The notes under the pieces were generated by a model that was not told where the DNA came from, searched no databases, and was given only the letters and a program-made list of their open reading frames with translations. Below, piece by piece: positions 11,981 through 56,271 of a stretch of 64,000 nt of DNA (its first letter is position 1; each line of letters begins with the position of its first letter). The translations under genes and the position numbers were made by a program. This DNA is from Synura sp. LO234KE (Eukaryota > Sar > Synurophyceae > Synurales > Mallomonadaceae): NCBI GenBank assembly GCA_015143735.1, contig VKHC01000001.1, positions 1 through 64,000 of the forward strand. The letters run 5' to 3'.

Positions 11981-11981
11981 A

Positions 11982-12065
11982 AGCATCTGACTGGATTCGA
12001 ACCAGTGTTGTTCTTACGAAAATGGATTATGAGTCCACTGCCTTCAACCACTCGGCCACAAATGC
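11982..12065 (-). tRNA. trnI-CAU: tRNA-Ile (CAU) with an unusual long variable arm
   Basis: Minus strand: acceptor GCATTTG pairs with CAGATGC. The anticodon loop CTCATAA gives CAU and the T arm is ACTGGTTCGAATCCAGT. The acceptor (GCAT...ATGC) and CTCATAAT match plastid trnI(CAU), whose C34 becomes lysidine by TilS to read AUA. Unlike the common form it has a variable region of about 15 nt that can fold (TTC-GTAA-GAA), and a D arm (GGCCGAGTGGTTGAAGGC) like those of class II serine tRNAs. The Met elongator is the separate gene at 50457. Confidence 0.75.
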
Positions 12066-12073
12066 TAATTGGT

Positions 12074-12137
12074 TGGAGCTTGCGGGATTTGAACCCGCGT
12101 GCATTAACTTATATTAATGTCGAATCCAAAAAGCCCC
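12074..12137 (-). ncRNA. ssrA: tmRNA-like gene reduced to the tRNA-like domain
   Basis: Read on the minus strand it starts GGGGCTTTTTGGATTCGAC and ends CGCGGGTTCAAATCCCGC followed by AAGCTCCA. These are the 5' and 3' signatures of tmRNA: acceptor GGGGCTT/AAGCTCC with the G3-U70 alanine identity pair, the D-loop analogue TTTGGATTCGAC, and a 5-bp T arm. Between them, where tmRNA has about 300 nt of tag ORF and pseudoknots, there is only a hairpin CATTAA-TATAAG-TTAATG (helix P2 stub). Total 64 nt, no encoded CCA. It lies between atpB and trnI on the same strand. It may be a minimal functional RNA or a decayed gene. Confidence 0.75.
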
Positions 12138-12138
12138 A

Positions 12139-12166
12139 AAAAGTCGATTTTTAAAAATCGACTTTT
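12139..12166. terminator. Perfect palindrome between atpB and ssrA
   Basis: 28-base perfect palindrome AAAAGTCGATTTTT plus its complement, 17 bases past the atpB stop (minus strand) and one base before the ssrA-like 5' end. A likely atpB mRNA 3' end or processing signal; the flanking A/T runs fit a bidirectional terminator. Confidence 0.65.
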
Positions 12167-12183: not shown

Positions 12184-13656
<1,473 letters not shown>

Positions 13657-39942: not shown

Positions 39943-41634
39943 TTATTTAAAATTTTGAAATTGTGTATAAGAAGGTGAAAATAATAATTTTGCTGTACCA
40001 AGAGGACCATTTCGATGTTTAGCTACAATAAATTCAGTAATTTGTGTATCAAGTTTATTCTCATTATAGTAATCTTCACGATAAATCATGATTACAATAT
40101 CTGCATCTTGTTCAATTGAATTATGAAAAAGGATATTGTTTAAAAGATAATTATGATAAATTGGAATAACTTTGTCATATACAAATTGGATTCCGTGGTA
40201 TTGAATATGTTGAACTTTTTGATAAAAAATTTTTTGAGAAGGTAATTCTATAGACTTTTGATCTTTTCGAAAATAACAAATTTCTGTTTTTGTTGAAATT
40301 TGAGAAATTTTAATCCAACCTTGCCGACTTAAAATTTTATGATTTGCAGTAATTTGAAATTTAAATCCATTTTGAAAAAAGATTAAAAAAGTTGGTTTAA
40401 GCCCTTTTATACGAAAAGGAATTTTTTTTGAAAAAGAAAGAATTTTTTCTGAATTCCAAGAATTATAGTTTGTTAATGAAAGTTGCTTTGGATTTCCTAA
40501 ACAACCACTTTCTCGTAAATCTGATAGCATAGGTCGCTTATTTATTCGAGATTCAACATTTCGACTTAATTGAGATAATAAAATGATAGGGATATTAAAT
40601 TCTTTTGCTAAAATTTTTAGACTTCGGGTCAAATAAGAAACTTCTTGAACTCGATTTTCCAATTTAAATGGAACTTTCATTAATTGAAGATAATCAATGA
40701 TAATTAAACCATTTTCATTATTATTTAGGAATATTTTTTGAATTTGAGCCCGAATGTCATTAATCGTTAAATTAGGATTATCATTAATATAGATAGGTAA
40801 TTCAGCTATTTTTTTCATGGATTTACTTAATTCTTTCCATTCATCAGAAGTCATTTTTTTTGACTTCAATCGATTATTATTAATTTTTGCATCGCTAGAG
40901 ATAAAACGATACATAATTTGTTCTCGTGACATTTCTAAACTAAAGATGATTAAAGGTATTTGATAATTTTCAACAATATTTTTTGCTAAATTAAGGGCAA
41001 AAGCTGTTTTCCCCATTGATGGTCTACCTGAAATTATAATTAAATCCGAGGGTTGAAAACCTTGAAGAATAGCATCTAAATCTTTAAAAGAGCTTTCGTA
41101 GCCAAATTTATCTTTCTTTGTTTTTTTAGATCTGATTTCTTCAAAAATTGTATCAATAATTTCAGTAGCAGTATAAATTTTTTTTAACTCTTTTTTTTGA
41201 TTAAGTTTATAAAGAGAGTCATTTAAGTTGGCTAAAATATCTTCAAAAGATAAAGTATTTTCAGAACTCCAATTTATAAGATTTTTTCCTAATTCAATTA
41301 CTAATCTTCGTAAATATTGTTCATTCACTGAATCGATAGAGTTTTCTAAATTAGAAAAAGGATCAAAATAATTAATAATTGAAATTAATTTTTTTGGACC
41401 TCCGATTTTTTTTAATATATTTCTATCATTTAATTTAGTAAGAATACTAGTTAAATTAATTGGGTTTCCTTTTTCTGAAAGCTCAATTAAAGTTTGATAG
41501 ATTAATTTATGTGGCTCATGATAGAATGCATTTTCTTTTAAAGTTAAAATTGTAGTTGGCAAAAAACTAGGATTAGTTAAAAGAATATTTAAAATACTTT
41601 GTTCGGCAATAAAATTATTAGGTAATTCCTTCAT
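39943..41634 (-). CDS. dnaB: Replicative DNA helicase DnaB with an in-frame intein
   Basis: DnaB unwinds DNA at the plastid replication fork. The N-terminal domain (NFIAEQSILNILLTNPSFLP) and the RecA-like helicase core (IIISGRPSMGKTAFALNLA Walker A; NGLIIIDYLQLMKV Walker B) are present. The core is interrupted after LRESG by a 128-residue intein and resumes SIEQDADIVIMIYRED. Without the intein the helicase is about 435 residues, normal for plastid DnaB. I take the ATG at 41634 as start; the frame extends to a GTG at 41649. Confidence 0.96.
   Translation of the reverse strand: MKELPNNFIAEQSILNILLTNPSFLPTTILTLKENAFYHEPHKLIYQTLIELSEKGNPINLTSILTKLNDRNILKKIGGPKKLISIINYFDPFSNLENSIDSVNEQYLRRLVIELGKNLINWSSENTLSFEDILANLNDSLYKLNQKKELKKIYTATEIIDTIFEEIRSKKTKKDKFGYESSFKDLDAILQGFQPSDLIIISGRPSMGKTAFALNLAKNIVENYQIPLIIFSLEMSREQIMYRFISSDAKINNNRLKSKKMTSDEWKELSKSMKKIAELPIYINDNPNLTINDIRAQIQKIFLNNNENGLIIIDYLQLMKVPFKLENRVQEVSYLTRSLKILAKEFNIPIILLSQLSRNVESRINKRPMLSDLRESGCLGNPKQLSLTNYNSWNSEKILSFSKKIPFRIKGLKPTFLIFFQNGFKFQITANHKILSRQGWIKISQISTKTEICYFRKDQKSIELPSQKIFYQKVQHIQYHGIQFVYDKVIPIYHNYLLNNILFHNSIEQDADIVIMIYREDYYNENKLDTQITEFIVAKHRNGPLGTAKLLFSPSYTQFQNFK
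40120..40503 (-). mobile_element. Mini-intein in DnaB (no homing endonuclease)
   Basis: The insert starts at Cys (codon 40501-40503) and ends in HN, followed by Ser of the C-extein (SIEQDADIV). This is the site used by other plastid and cyanobacterial DnaB inteins. Block B is clear (TANHKILSRQGWIKISQI) and so are blocks F and G (VYDKVIPIYHNYLLNNILFHN). There is no LAGLIDADG region, and the length is only 128 residues. Block A is weak: CLGNPKQLSL instead of the usual C-x-x-GDTLV-like start. Splicing is expected from Cys1, the block B His, the terminal Asn and Ser+1, all present. Confidence 0.88.
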
Positions 41635-41733
41635 TTTTTTAATATTCACTAATTTAAGTCAAGGGATTTGCTATTTTATAACAAGAATATTATACTAAAT
41701 ATGTTCCTATAAAATTTTATAAAAATTTTATTT

Positions 41734-55350: not shown

Positions 55351-55419
55351 GAATGATTAAAAAAAAAAACGAAAGAAGAAATATAATATGATTTTTTCCT
55401 TCGTTTTTTTTTATCATTC
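55351..55419. terminator. Imperfect hairpin between psaL and cemA
   Basis: GAATGATT-(A run)-CGAA (55351-55373) can pair with TTCG-(T run)-ATCATTC (55400-55419) with a small bulge in the A/T part. The right arm contains the cemA stop (55414-55416). Long A and T tracts fit a two-way terminator. Confidence 0.5.
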
Positions 55420-56163
55420 ATTCATCTTATGATACGTTGAAACAATTGATGGAGAAATTCCATTTAAATGTTTAAAAATCCAATATTTGAATAAAGTATC
55501 TAATAACACTGGAAGAGTAGCTACAAATGAAAAAATAAAACCTCTTTCCTGAGGTAAACCAAAATGTTTTAAAAAATTTTCTAATACAATTTCCCATCCA
55601 TAAGAGGAATGAAAACCTACAAAAGTATCACTAAATAAAATTAATAAAAAAGCCTTTTTATCATCGGTAAGTTCAAAAAACTTAAATTTCCAGTTTTGTA
55701 AAAAAAGATTAAATTGATAACTATTTTTAAATACAATTGTAATTAAAAAAAGAAGTAGAAGGAAATCTCCAAAAATATTAAGAACTGTAAAAAGCGTTTC
55801 TTGATAATACTTATTAATAAGTTTTCTAGTTTTTATTAATAAATTTTTATATACTTTTTTCTTTAAATCTATATTTTTTTGTTTTATAAGATTCTTAGTA
55901 GAATCTAAAGCCTTTTTTTTTGTATTACTTGATTCACAGAATAAATCAAAAATAAATTTTCTTTTATAGTTTGAAAATTCTTTAATTGCTTTTTCTTTAT
56001 GAGAAAAATTTAAAAAAACAGGAAAATTAACTTTTTCCCAAATAAAATGAATTGTTGGTCCAAAAACAATATTTTTTATTAAATTGGTCGCAATTAAAAT
56101 TTTTAAAAAAGTTAATAAAATAAACTTTGTTCCTAAAAAAAAATCTTTTTTCTCTATTAACAT
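55414..56163 (-). CDS. cemA: Chloroplast envelope membrane protein CemA (Ycf10)
   Basis: Inner-envelope protein linked to proton extrusion and inorganic carbon uptake. From the ATG at 56163 it has 249 residues (the frame reaches a TTG at 56184). The C-terminal half is typical: LLLFLITIVFKN, KAFLLILFSDTFVGFHSSYGWEIVLENFLKHFGLPQ and the end FVATLPVLLDTLFKYWIFKHLNGISPSIVSTYHKMNE. Confidence 0.95.
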   Translation of the reverse strand: MLIEKKDFFLGTKFILLTFLKILIATNLIKNIVFGPTIHFIWEKVNFPVFLNFSHKEKAIKEFSNYKRKFIFDLFCESSNTKKKALDSTKNLIKQKNIDLKKKVYKNLLIKTRKLINKYYQETLFTVLNIFGDFLLLLFLITIVFKNSYQFNLFLQNWKFKFFELTDDKKAFLLILFSDTFVGFHSSYGWEIVLENFLKHFGLPQERGFIFSFVATLPVLLDTLFKYWIFKHLNGISPSIVSTYHKMNE

Positions 56164-56271
56164 TTTATTAAAAAATAGGTGCAAATTTATTGATTTGTAT
56201 TCTTACTTTTGTTAGATTTATGAATTGTGGTATATTATAATATAGAATTAAATAAAGAAAAGTGAACTATC

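Follow-up and report, generated by a model that had tools for sequence, protein, structure and literature searches.

A plastid tmRNA gene reduced to its tRNA-like domain, with a proposed role in untagged ribosome rescue

A tmRNA is defined by the union of a tRNA-like and an mRNA-like part. Does a 64-nt gene on the minus strand of an ochrophyte plastome fragment, just downstream of atpB, belong to the tmRNAs although one of these parts is missing, and what might such an RNA do? The fragment, hereafter the window (the whole 64-kb stretch that was analysed), carries cemA (PF03040), dnaB (PF03796) and ClpC.

Identity and anatomy of the gene

We find that positions 12,074–12,137 are a plastid tmRNA gene (ssrA) reduced to its tRNA-like domain (TLD), as the first-pass annotation had read it. 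The features of the locus are as follows, with the basis of each call in brackets where it applies.

12,184–13,614, minus strand: atpB, upstream of ssrA
12,139–12,166: perfect 28-bp palindrome between atpB and ssrA, 1 nt from the 5' end of ssrA, with a 12-bp stem and a loop of 4 nt
12,074–12,137, minus strand: ssrA, a tmRNA gene of the TLD-only form; mature RNA of 64 nt, not counting the added CCA (RF00023, model R1, fold)
12,131–12,137, minus strand: P1 acceptor stem, 5' strand GGGGCUU, with G3 at 12,135 (fold)
12,120–12,130, minus strand: D-arm-like segment of 11 nt, UUUGGAUUCGA, a tmRNA signature (Rfam alignment, model R1)
12,102–12,119, minus strand: P2 stub, a 7-bp hairpin CAUUAAU-AUAA-GUUAAUG in place of the tag ORF and pseudoknots (fold)
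12,082–12,098, minus strand: T-arm GCGGG-UUCAAAU-CCCGC with a 5-bp stem (Rfam alignment, fold, model R1)
12,075–12,081, minus strand: P1 acceptor stem, 3' strand AAGCUCC; U70 at 12,077 pairs with G3, the alanine identity pair (fold)
12,074, minus strand: discriminator A73 (sequence)
11,981–12,066, minus strand: tRNA with a CAU anticodon, 7 nt downstream of ssrA (ARAGORN)

Read on the minus strand from 12,137 to 12,074, the gene is GGGGCUUUUUGGAUUCGACAUUAAUAUAAGUUAAUGCACGCGGGUUCAAAUCCCGCAAGCUCCA. The tmRNA signatures that the first-pass annotation had noticed, in normal order, are confirmed by the sequence and by the RF00023 match: GGATTCGAC and GGAUUCGAC are intact, and the D-arm-like segment contains GGAUUCGA. 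The 7-bp acceptor with its G3-U70 pair is likewise recovered in the predicted fold (12,135 with 12,077), in which all pairs of P1, P2 and the T-stem are formed. The P2 stub is present, but its dimensions had been given as 6 bp with a 6-nt loop, and the predicted hairpin has 7 bp and an AUAA loop of 4 nt; the earlier version is the same hairpin minus its closing U-G pair. A linker of 3 nt lies between P2 and the T-arm. CCA is not encoded at the 3' end, where the next bases are ACC.

The tag ORF and pseudoknot region is indeed missing. The strands of P2 are separated only by the 4-nt loop, with no tag reading frame (resume and stop codon) between them, and the fold of the 64-nt RNA contains none of the pseudoknots PK1–PK4. 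The lack of a tag reading frame defines the published 'standard, no CDS' tmRNA form (~60–80 nt), and the gene conforms to it, with contiguous 5' and 3' TLD halves in normal order and no CDS. A canonical tRNA was ruled out: the RNA has neither a D-stem nor an anticodon arm, and ARAGORN calls no tRNA at the site. ARAGORN does not call the ssrA gene either.

The tmRNA model of Rfam, whose use had been suggested in the first pass, matched positions 12,071–12,137 at 52.9 bits (RF00023, E = 5.5e-18 in the 64-kb window; curated cut-off 47). The match spans the full model of 374 positions with the mRNA-like domain deleted (310 positions), and the result was repeated on a 3-kb locus and on the whole assembly, where it was the sole match above the cut-off. 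For very short sub-stretches, cmscan returned a partial match at 20.0 bits, or none above the cut-off. We attribute these weaker scores to the way Infernal's filters and bands handle a model with so many deleted positions; RF00023 on three longer sources and an unfiltered search with our own model agree on the site. Our covariance model (R1) was built from four phage TLD-only RNAs and run with filters off; it was limited to P1 and the T-stem because MAFFT misaligned the P2 strands (out of register). In the window, its top match was 12,074–12,137 (42.7 bits, E = 2.9e-8), followed by an ordinary tRNA (E = 0.02). A TLD descriptor found one site (in two registers) in the real window and had 0 matches in 100 dinucleotide shuffles. 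The minimum free energy is -21.7 kcal/mol versus -12.2 for shuffles (z = -3.65), and 0 of 200 shuffles were as stable.

In the assembly, which is incomplete, neither a second copy nor a full-length tmRNA scored above the RF00023 cut-off. Among the weaker RF00023 matches, the ones inspected fall on ordinary tRNAs.

Published relatives and phage counterparts

The first-pass annotation knew of no plastid example, but the form has been described. The March 2025 update of the tmRNA database reports two plastid tmRNAs of Mallomonadaceae that are CDS-less, ~65 bp long, and nearer other ochrophyte plastid tmRNAs than tRNAs (PMC11915505); in the NCBI taxonomy, this family includes Mallomonas and Synura. 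The plastid TLD-only form is already published, and the present gene is a further member. What is added here is probably a further species, together with a more detailed anatomy and a likeness to several phage TLD-only RNAs. Likened by the published description, our gene agrees with the two sequences in plastid location, order or family (by gene content), size, standard order and absence of a tag CDS. No ssrA is mentioned in the paper on Synurophyceae plastomes (PMC6330437), and an earlier study found the gene in eustigmatophytes and not in the chrysophyte Ochromonas (PMC5133447).

The standard ochrophyte plastid tmRNAs of eustigmatophytes, diatoms and brown algae have a homologous TLD, and their genes also lie in a tRNA-rich region. 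However, they encode a tag, whereas the ssrA described here has no mRNA-like domain. Few or no pseudoknots occur in plastid tmRNAs (PMC3985003). The tag-less mitochondrial tmRNAs of jakobids and oomycetes (RF02544) are likewise organelle-encoded, without tag frame and pseudoknots, and are expected to partner with SmpB. They differ in being mitochondrial, of alphaproteobacterial ancestry, and often permuted and in two pieces; their model, also suggested in the first pass, had no match at E ≤ 1 across the assembly.

We scanned IMG/VR for GGATTCGAC with a tmRNA-type T-arm close behind. The scan gave ten stretches, eight of which (L009–L015 and L017) reach the RF00023 cut-off:

L009:3,079–3,140: phage TLD-only tmRNA
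L010:1,583–1,645, minus strand: phage TLD-only tmRNA
L011:188–266, minus strand: phage TLD-only tmRNA, same sequence as L017
L012:3,633–3,711, minus strand: phage TLD-only tmRNA
L013:1,394–1,472: phage TLD-only tmRNA
L014:3,496–3,557, minus strand: phage TLD-only tmRNA
L015:375–453: phage TLD-only tmRNA
L017:3,380–3,458: phage TLD-only tmRNA, same sequence as L011

All eight are 62–79 nt long, score 47–76 bits with RF00023 and have G3-U70. Large tRNA arrays surround three of them, and phage-type genes (Erf-like annealing protein, RecE-like exonuclease, clamp loader, RNA ligase/tail-fibre attachment, terminase) lie around L009, L010 and L017. As a phage precedent in the literature, we found mycobacteriophage DS6A alone. 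The plastid RNA, DS6A and the phage TLDs (L009, L010, L012–L015 and L017) have in common a standard-order P1, GGATTCGAC, a short P2, a T-arm, G3-U70 and no tag ORF. For instance, L009 repeats the plastid layout of an 11-nt segment and a 3-nt linker, with a P2 of 6 bp and a GCAA loop. These phage RNAs are convergent with the plastid form. They differ in being phage-borne and in that the host has its own tmRNA, so that an interfering role is possible; they may be phage-made competitors for SmpB or the A-site.

For covariation, an alignment of seven phage loci with the plastid RNA and two weak matches was fitted to the model structure. In P1 and the T-stem, 95% of the cells are paired, and 17 two-sided changes compare with 5.4 in shuffles and ≤4 in slid controls, although the fitted alignment biases such counts toward structure. 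Because the stems covary across the aligned loci, the P1/T fold of the model is well supported, and the plastid RNA retains all of it.

In IMG/VR, an ochrophyte TLD-only pattern had 0 matches and a search via AtpB yielded no plastid relatives; in phage genomes, every BLAST match to the 64-nt sequence spanned less than half of it. Pattern matches in GTDB looked by eye mostly like tRNA fragments or chance. Of the two taken further, L023 scored a weak 22.5 bits, and L025, from a Clostridia MAG, carries two identical tandem tmRNA/tRNA-like elements (L025:673–760 and L025:790–880; GGATTCGAC ... GTGGGTTCAAATCCC ... CCCCACCA) with no Rfam match at 1e-4.

Proposed function and alternative explanations

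We think it probable that the gene is a synuralean plastid ssrA that lost its whole mRNA-like domain, had P2 resealed as a short hairpin, and works in untagged ribosome rescue. The first-pass annotation had offered three functional options: an alanylated RNA that releases stalled ribosomes with no tag added, part of a two-piece RNA, or a decaying gene kept by atpB-trnI processing. We infer that the first fits best.

In tmRNA, G3-U70 directs AlaRS, SmpB replaces the anticodon half, and EF-Tu delivers Ala-tmRNA-SmpB to stalled ribosomes (PMC3985003). In the plastid, RNase P and RNase Z would excise the transcript between atpB and the CAU tRNA, CCA would be added, and AlaRS would charge the RNA via G3-U70. 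SmpB, nuclear-encoded in related algae, would stand in for the missing anticodon half, and EF-Tu would bring Ala-TLD-SmpB to those plastid ribosomes that have stalled at the end of an mRNA, where the nascent chain would be transferred to the alanine. No tag would be added because there is no resume codon, and either a release-factor-like hydrolase or drop-off together with peptidyl-tRNA hydrolase would complete the release.

An engineered TLD in which the 5' 25 nt and the 3' 34 nt are joined by UUCG has been crystallised with SmpB (PDB 2CZJ; PMC3985003), and the plastid RNA is nearly identical to it in design. Tag-less mitochondrial tmRNAs co-occur with SmpB (PMC7050145, PMC11915505), and plastid-targeted SmpB is known in several ochrophytes, including the eustigmatophyte Nannochloropsis (PMC4131195). 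SmpB (PF01668) had no match in the assembly, which also lacks tubulin, so that this negative is uninformative. That a ~65-bp form is also reported from the same family (PMC11915505) argues for retention under selection. More broadly, it is possible, and we propose it tentatively, that SmpB-dependent rescue by an alanylated TLD alone, untagged and in one step of peptide acceptance and drop-off, evolved independently in synuralean plastids, some mitochondria and phages.

Counting against the rescue reading, a TLD-only, DS6A-like RNA acts as an inhibitor of tmRNA in E. coli, in chargeable and unchargeable form alike (PMC4131195), so a TLD alone need not rescue. The plastid RNA could instead form a TLD-SmpB complex without rescue and act as a competitor or regulator of the ribosome A-site or of SmpB use, as proposed for the DS6A TLD; the strong inhibition of tmRNA by the DS6A-like molecule perhaps works by titrating SmpB (PMC4131195). 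Phages do carry convergent TLD-only RNAs. However, we consider a competitor quite unlikely, as no full-length tmRNA was found in the assembly to compete with and the plastid gene has retained G3-U70 and the discriminator A, which mere titration would not need. Decay, with the tRNA-like fold kept solely as a processing mark between atpB and the tRNA that follows, is also unlikely. With atpB ending 46 bp upstream and the tRNA beginning 7 bp downstream on the same strand, the position of the gene would suit such a remnant, and the missing coding part amounts to a large lesion. Yet P1 and the T-stem keep 12 of 12 pairs, GGAUUCGAC, G3-U70 and A73 are likewise intact, and P2 is neatly resealed; the adjacent tRNA would itself supply a processing site, and other members of the family are reported to have this form (PMC11915505), whereas the genuine ssrA pseudogene of Carsonella lost every conserved region (PMC4131195).

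A split tmRNA, with an mRNA-like domain encoded elsewhere and joining in trans, is highly improbable. Two-piece tmRNAs exist (PMC3985003), and the search covered 74 kb of plastome plus an incomplete assembly in which the plastid 16S rRNA was not found. But two-piece tmRNAs, as far as known, have a permuted layout that is broken within the loop of the mRNA-like domain, and here the two TLD halves are contiguous, stand in normal order and are joined by a perfect, closed P2 hairpin, which leaves no joint. The assembly also holds no second RF00023 match above the cut-off. A deletion produced by sequencing or assembly error is hardly credible: the gene is seen as one copy in one assembly, but a hairpin with perfect pairing remains at the site of the deletion, and the two other ~65-bp Mallomonadaceae sequences were reported independently (PMC11915505).

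If the plastid RNA does act in untagged rescue, a TLD-only form with all recognition elements intact would separate ribosome release from protein tagging, and which half of tmRNA is kept by selection becomes testable. The plastid offers a clearer case than the phages do, with no full-length tmRNA found for the RNA to interfere with.

Neighbourhood and plastome

The gene starts 46 bp after atpB, on the same strand. The palindrome between them is possibly the 3'-end hairpin of atpB, and on the opposite strand it is terminator-like. The downstream CAU tRNA, labelled Met by ARAGORN, may be the AUA-reading tRNA-Ile; its variable region (UUCGUAAGAACA) is unusually long, and its D-arm is Ser/Leu-like.

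Gene content (cemA with dnaB, a clpN-like ORF, acsF) points to a Synura/Mallomonas-like plastome. Among ochrophytes, cemA occurs only in Synurophyceae, and within this class dnaB occurs only in Synura and Mallomonas (PMC6330437). The acsF-like ORF, together with an ilvH-like one, was identified by reading the ORFs of the window, and we take a 334-aa ORF without a Pfam match as clpN-like. The gene order clpC-trnF-(dnaB)-trnW-rpl11-rpl1-rpl12-trnP agrees with PMC7511666. The species is probably different from those of the five published Synurophyceae plastomes, because GC is 27.7% over the 64-kb window and 37.5–42.4% overall in those plastomes (PMC6330437).

No mitochondrial tmRNA was found by Rfam above the cut-off, and no RF02544 match, on a 29.6-kb contig of the same assembly (C13; L031–L033) that looks mitochondrial, with a bacterial-type SSU rRNA, cob, and cox-like and nad-like ORFs. 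The dnaB gene (39,943–41,649, minus strand) seems to contain a small intein-like insertion of ~130 aa, from ..LRESG|CLGNP.. to ..LFHN|SIEQDAD... PF14890 matches this insertion weakly (22.2 bits, below the curated cut-off), and the Synurophyceae plastome paper mentions no intein (PMC6330437). The cemA gene lies at 55,414–56,184 on the minus strand; its presence in Synurophyceae is a possible lateral transfer from green algae (PMC6330437).
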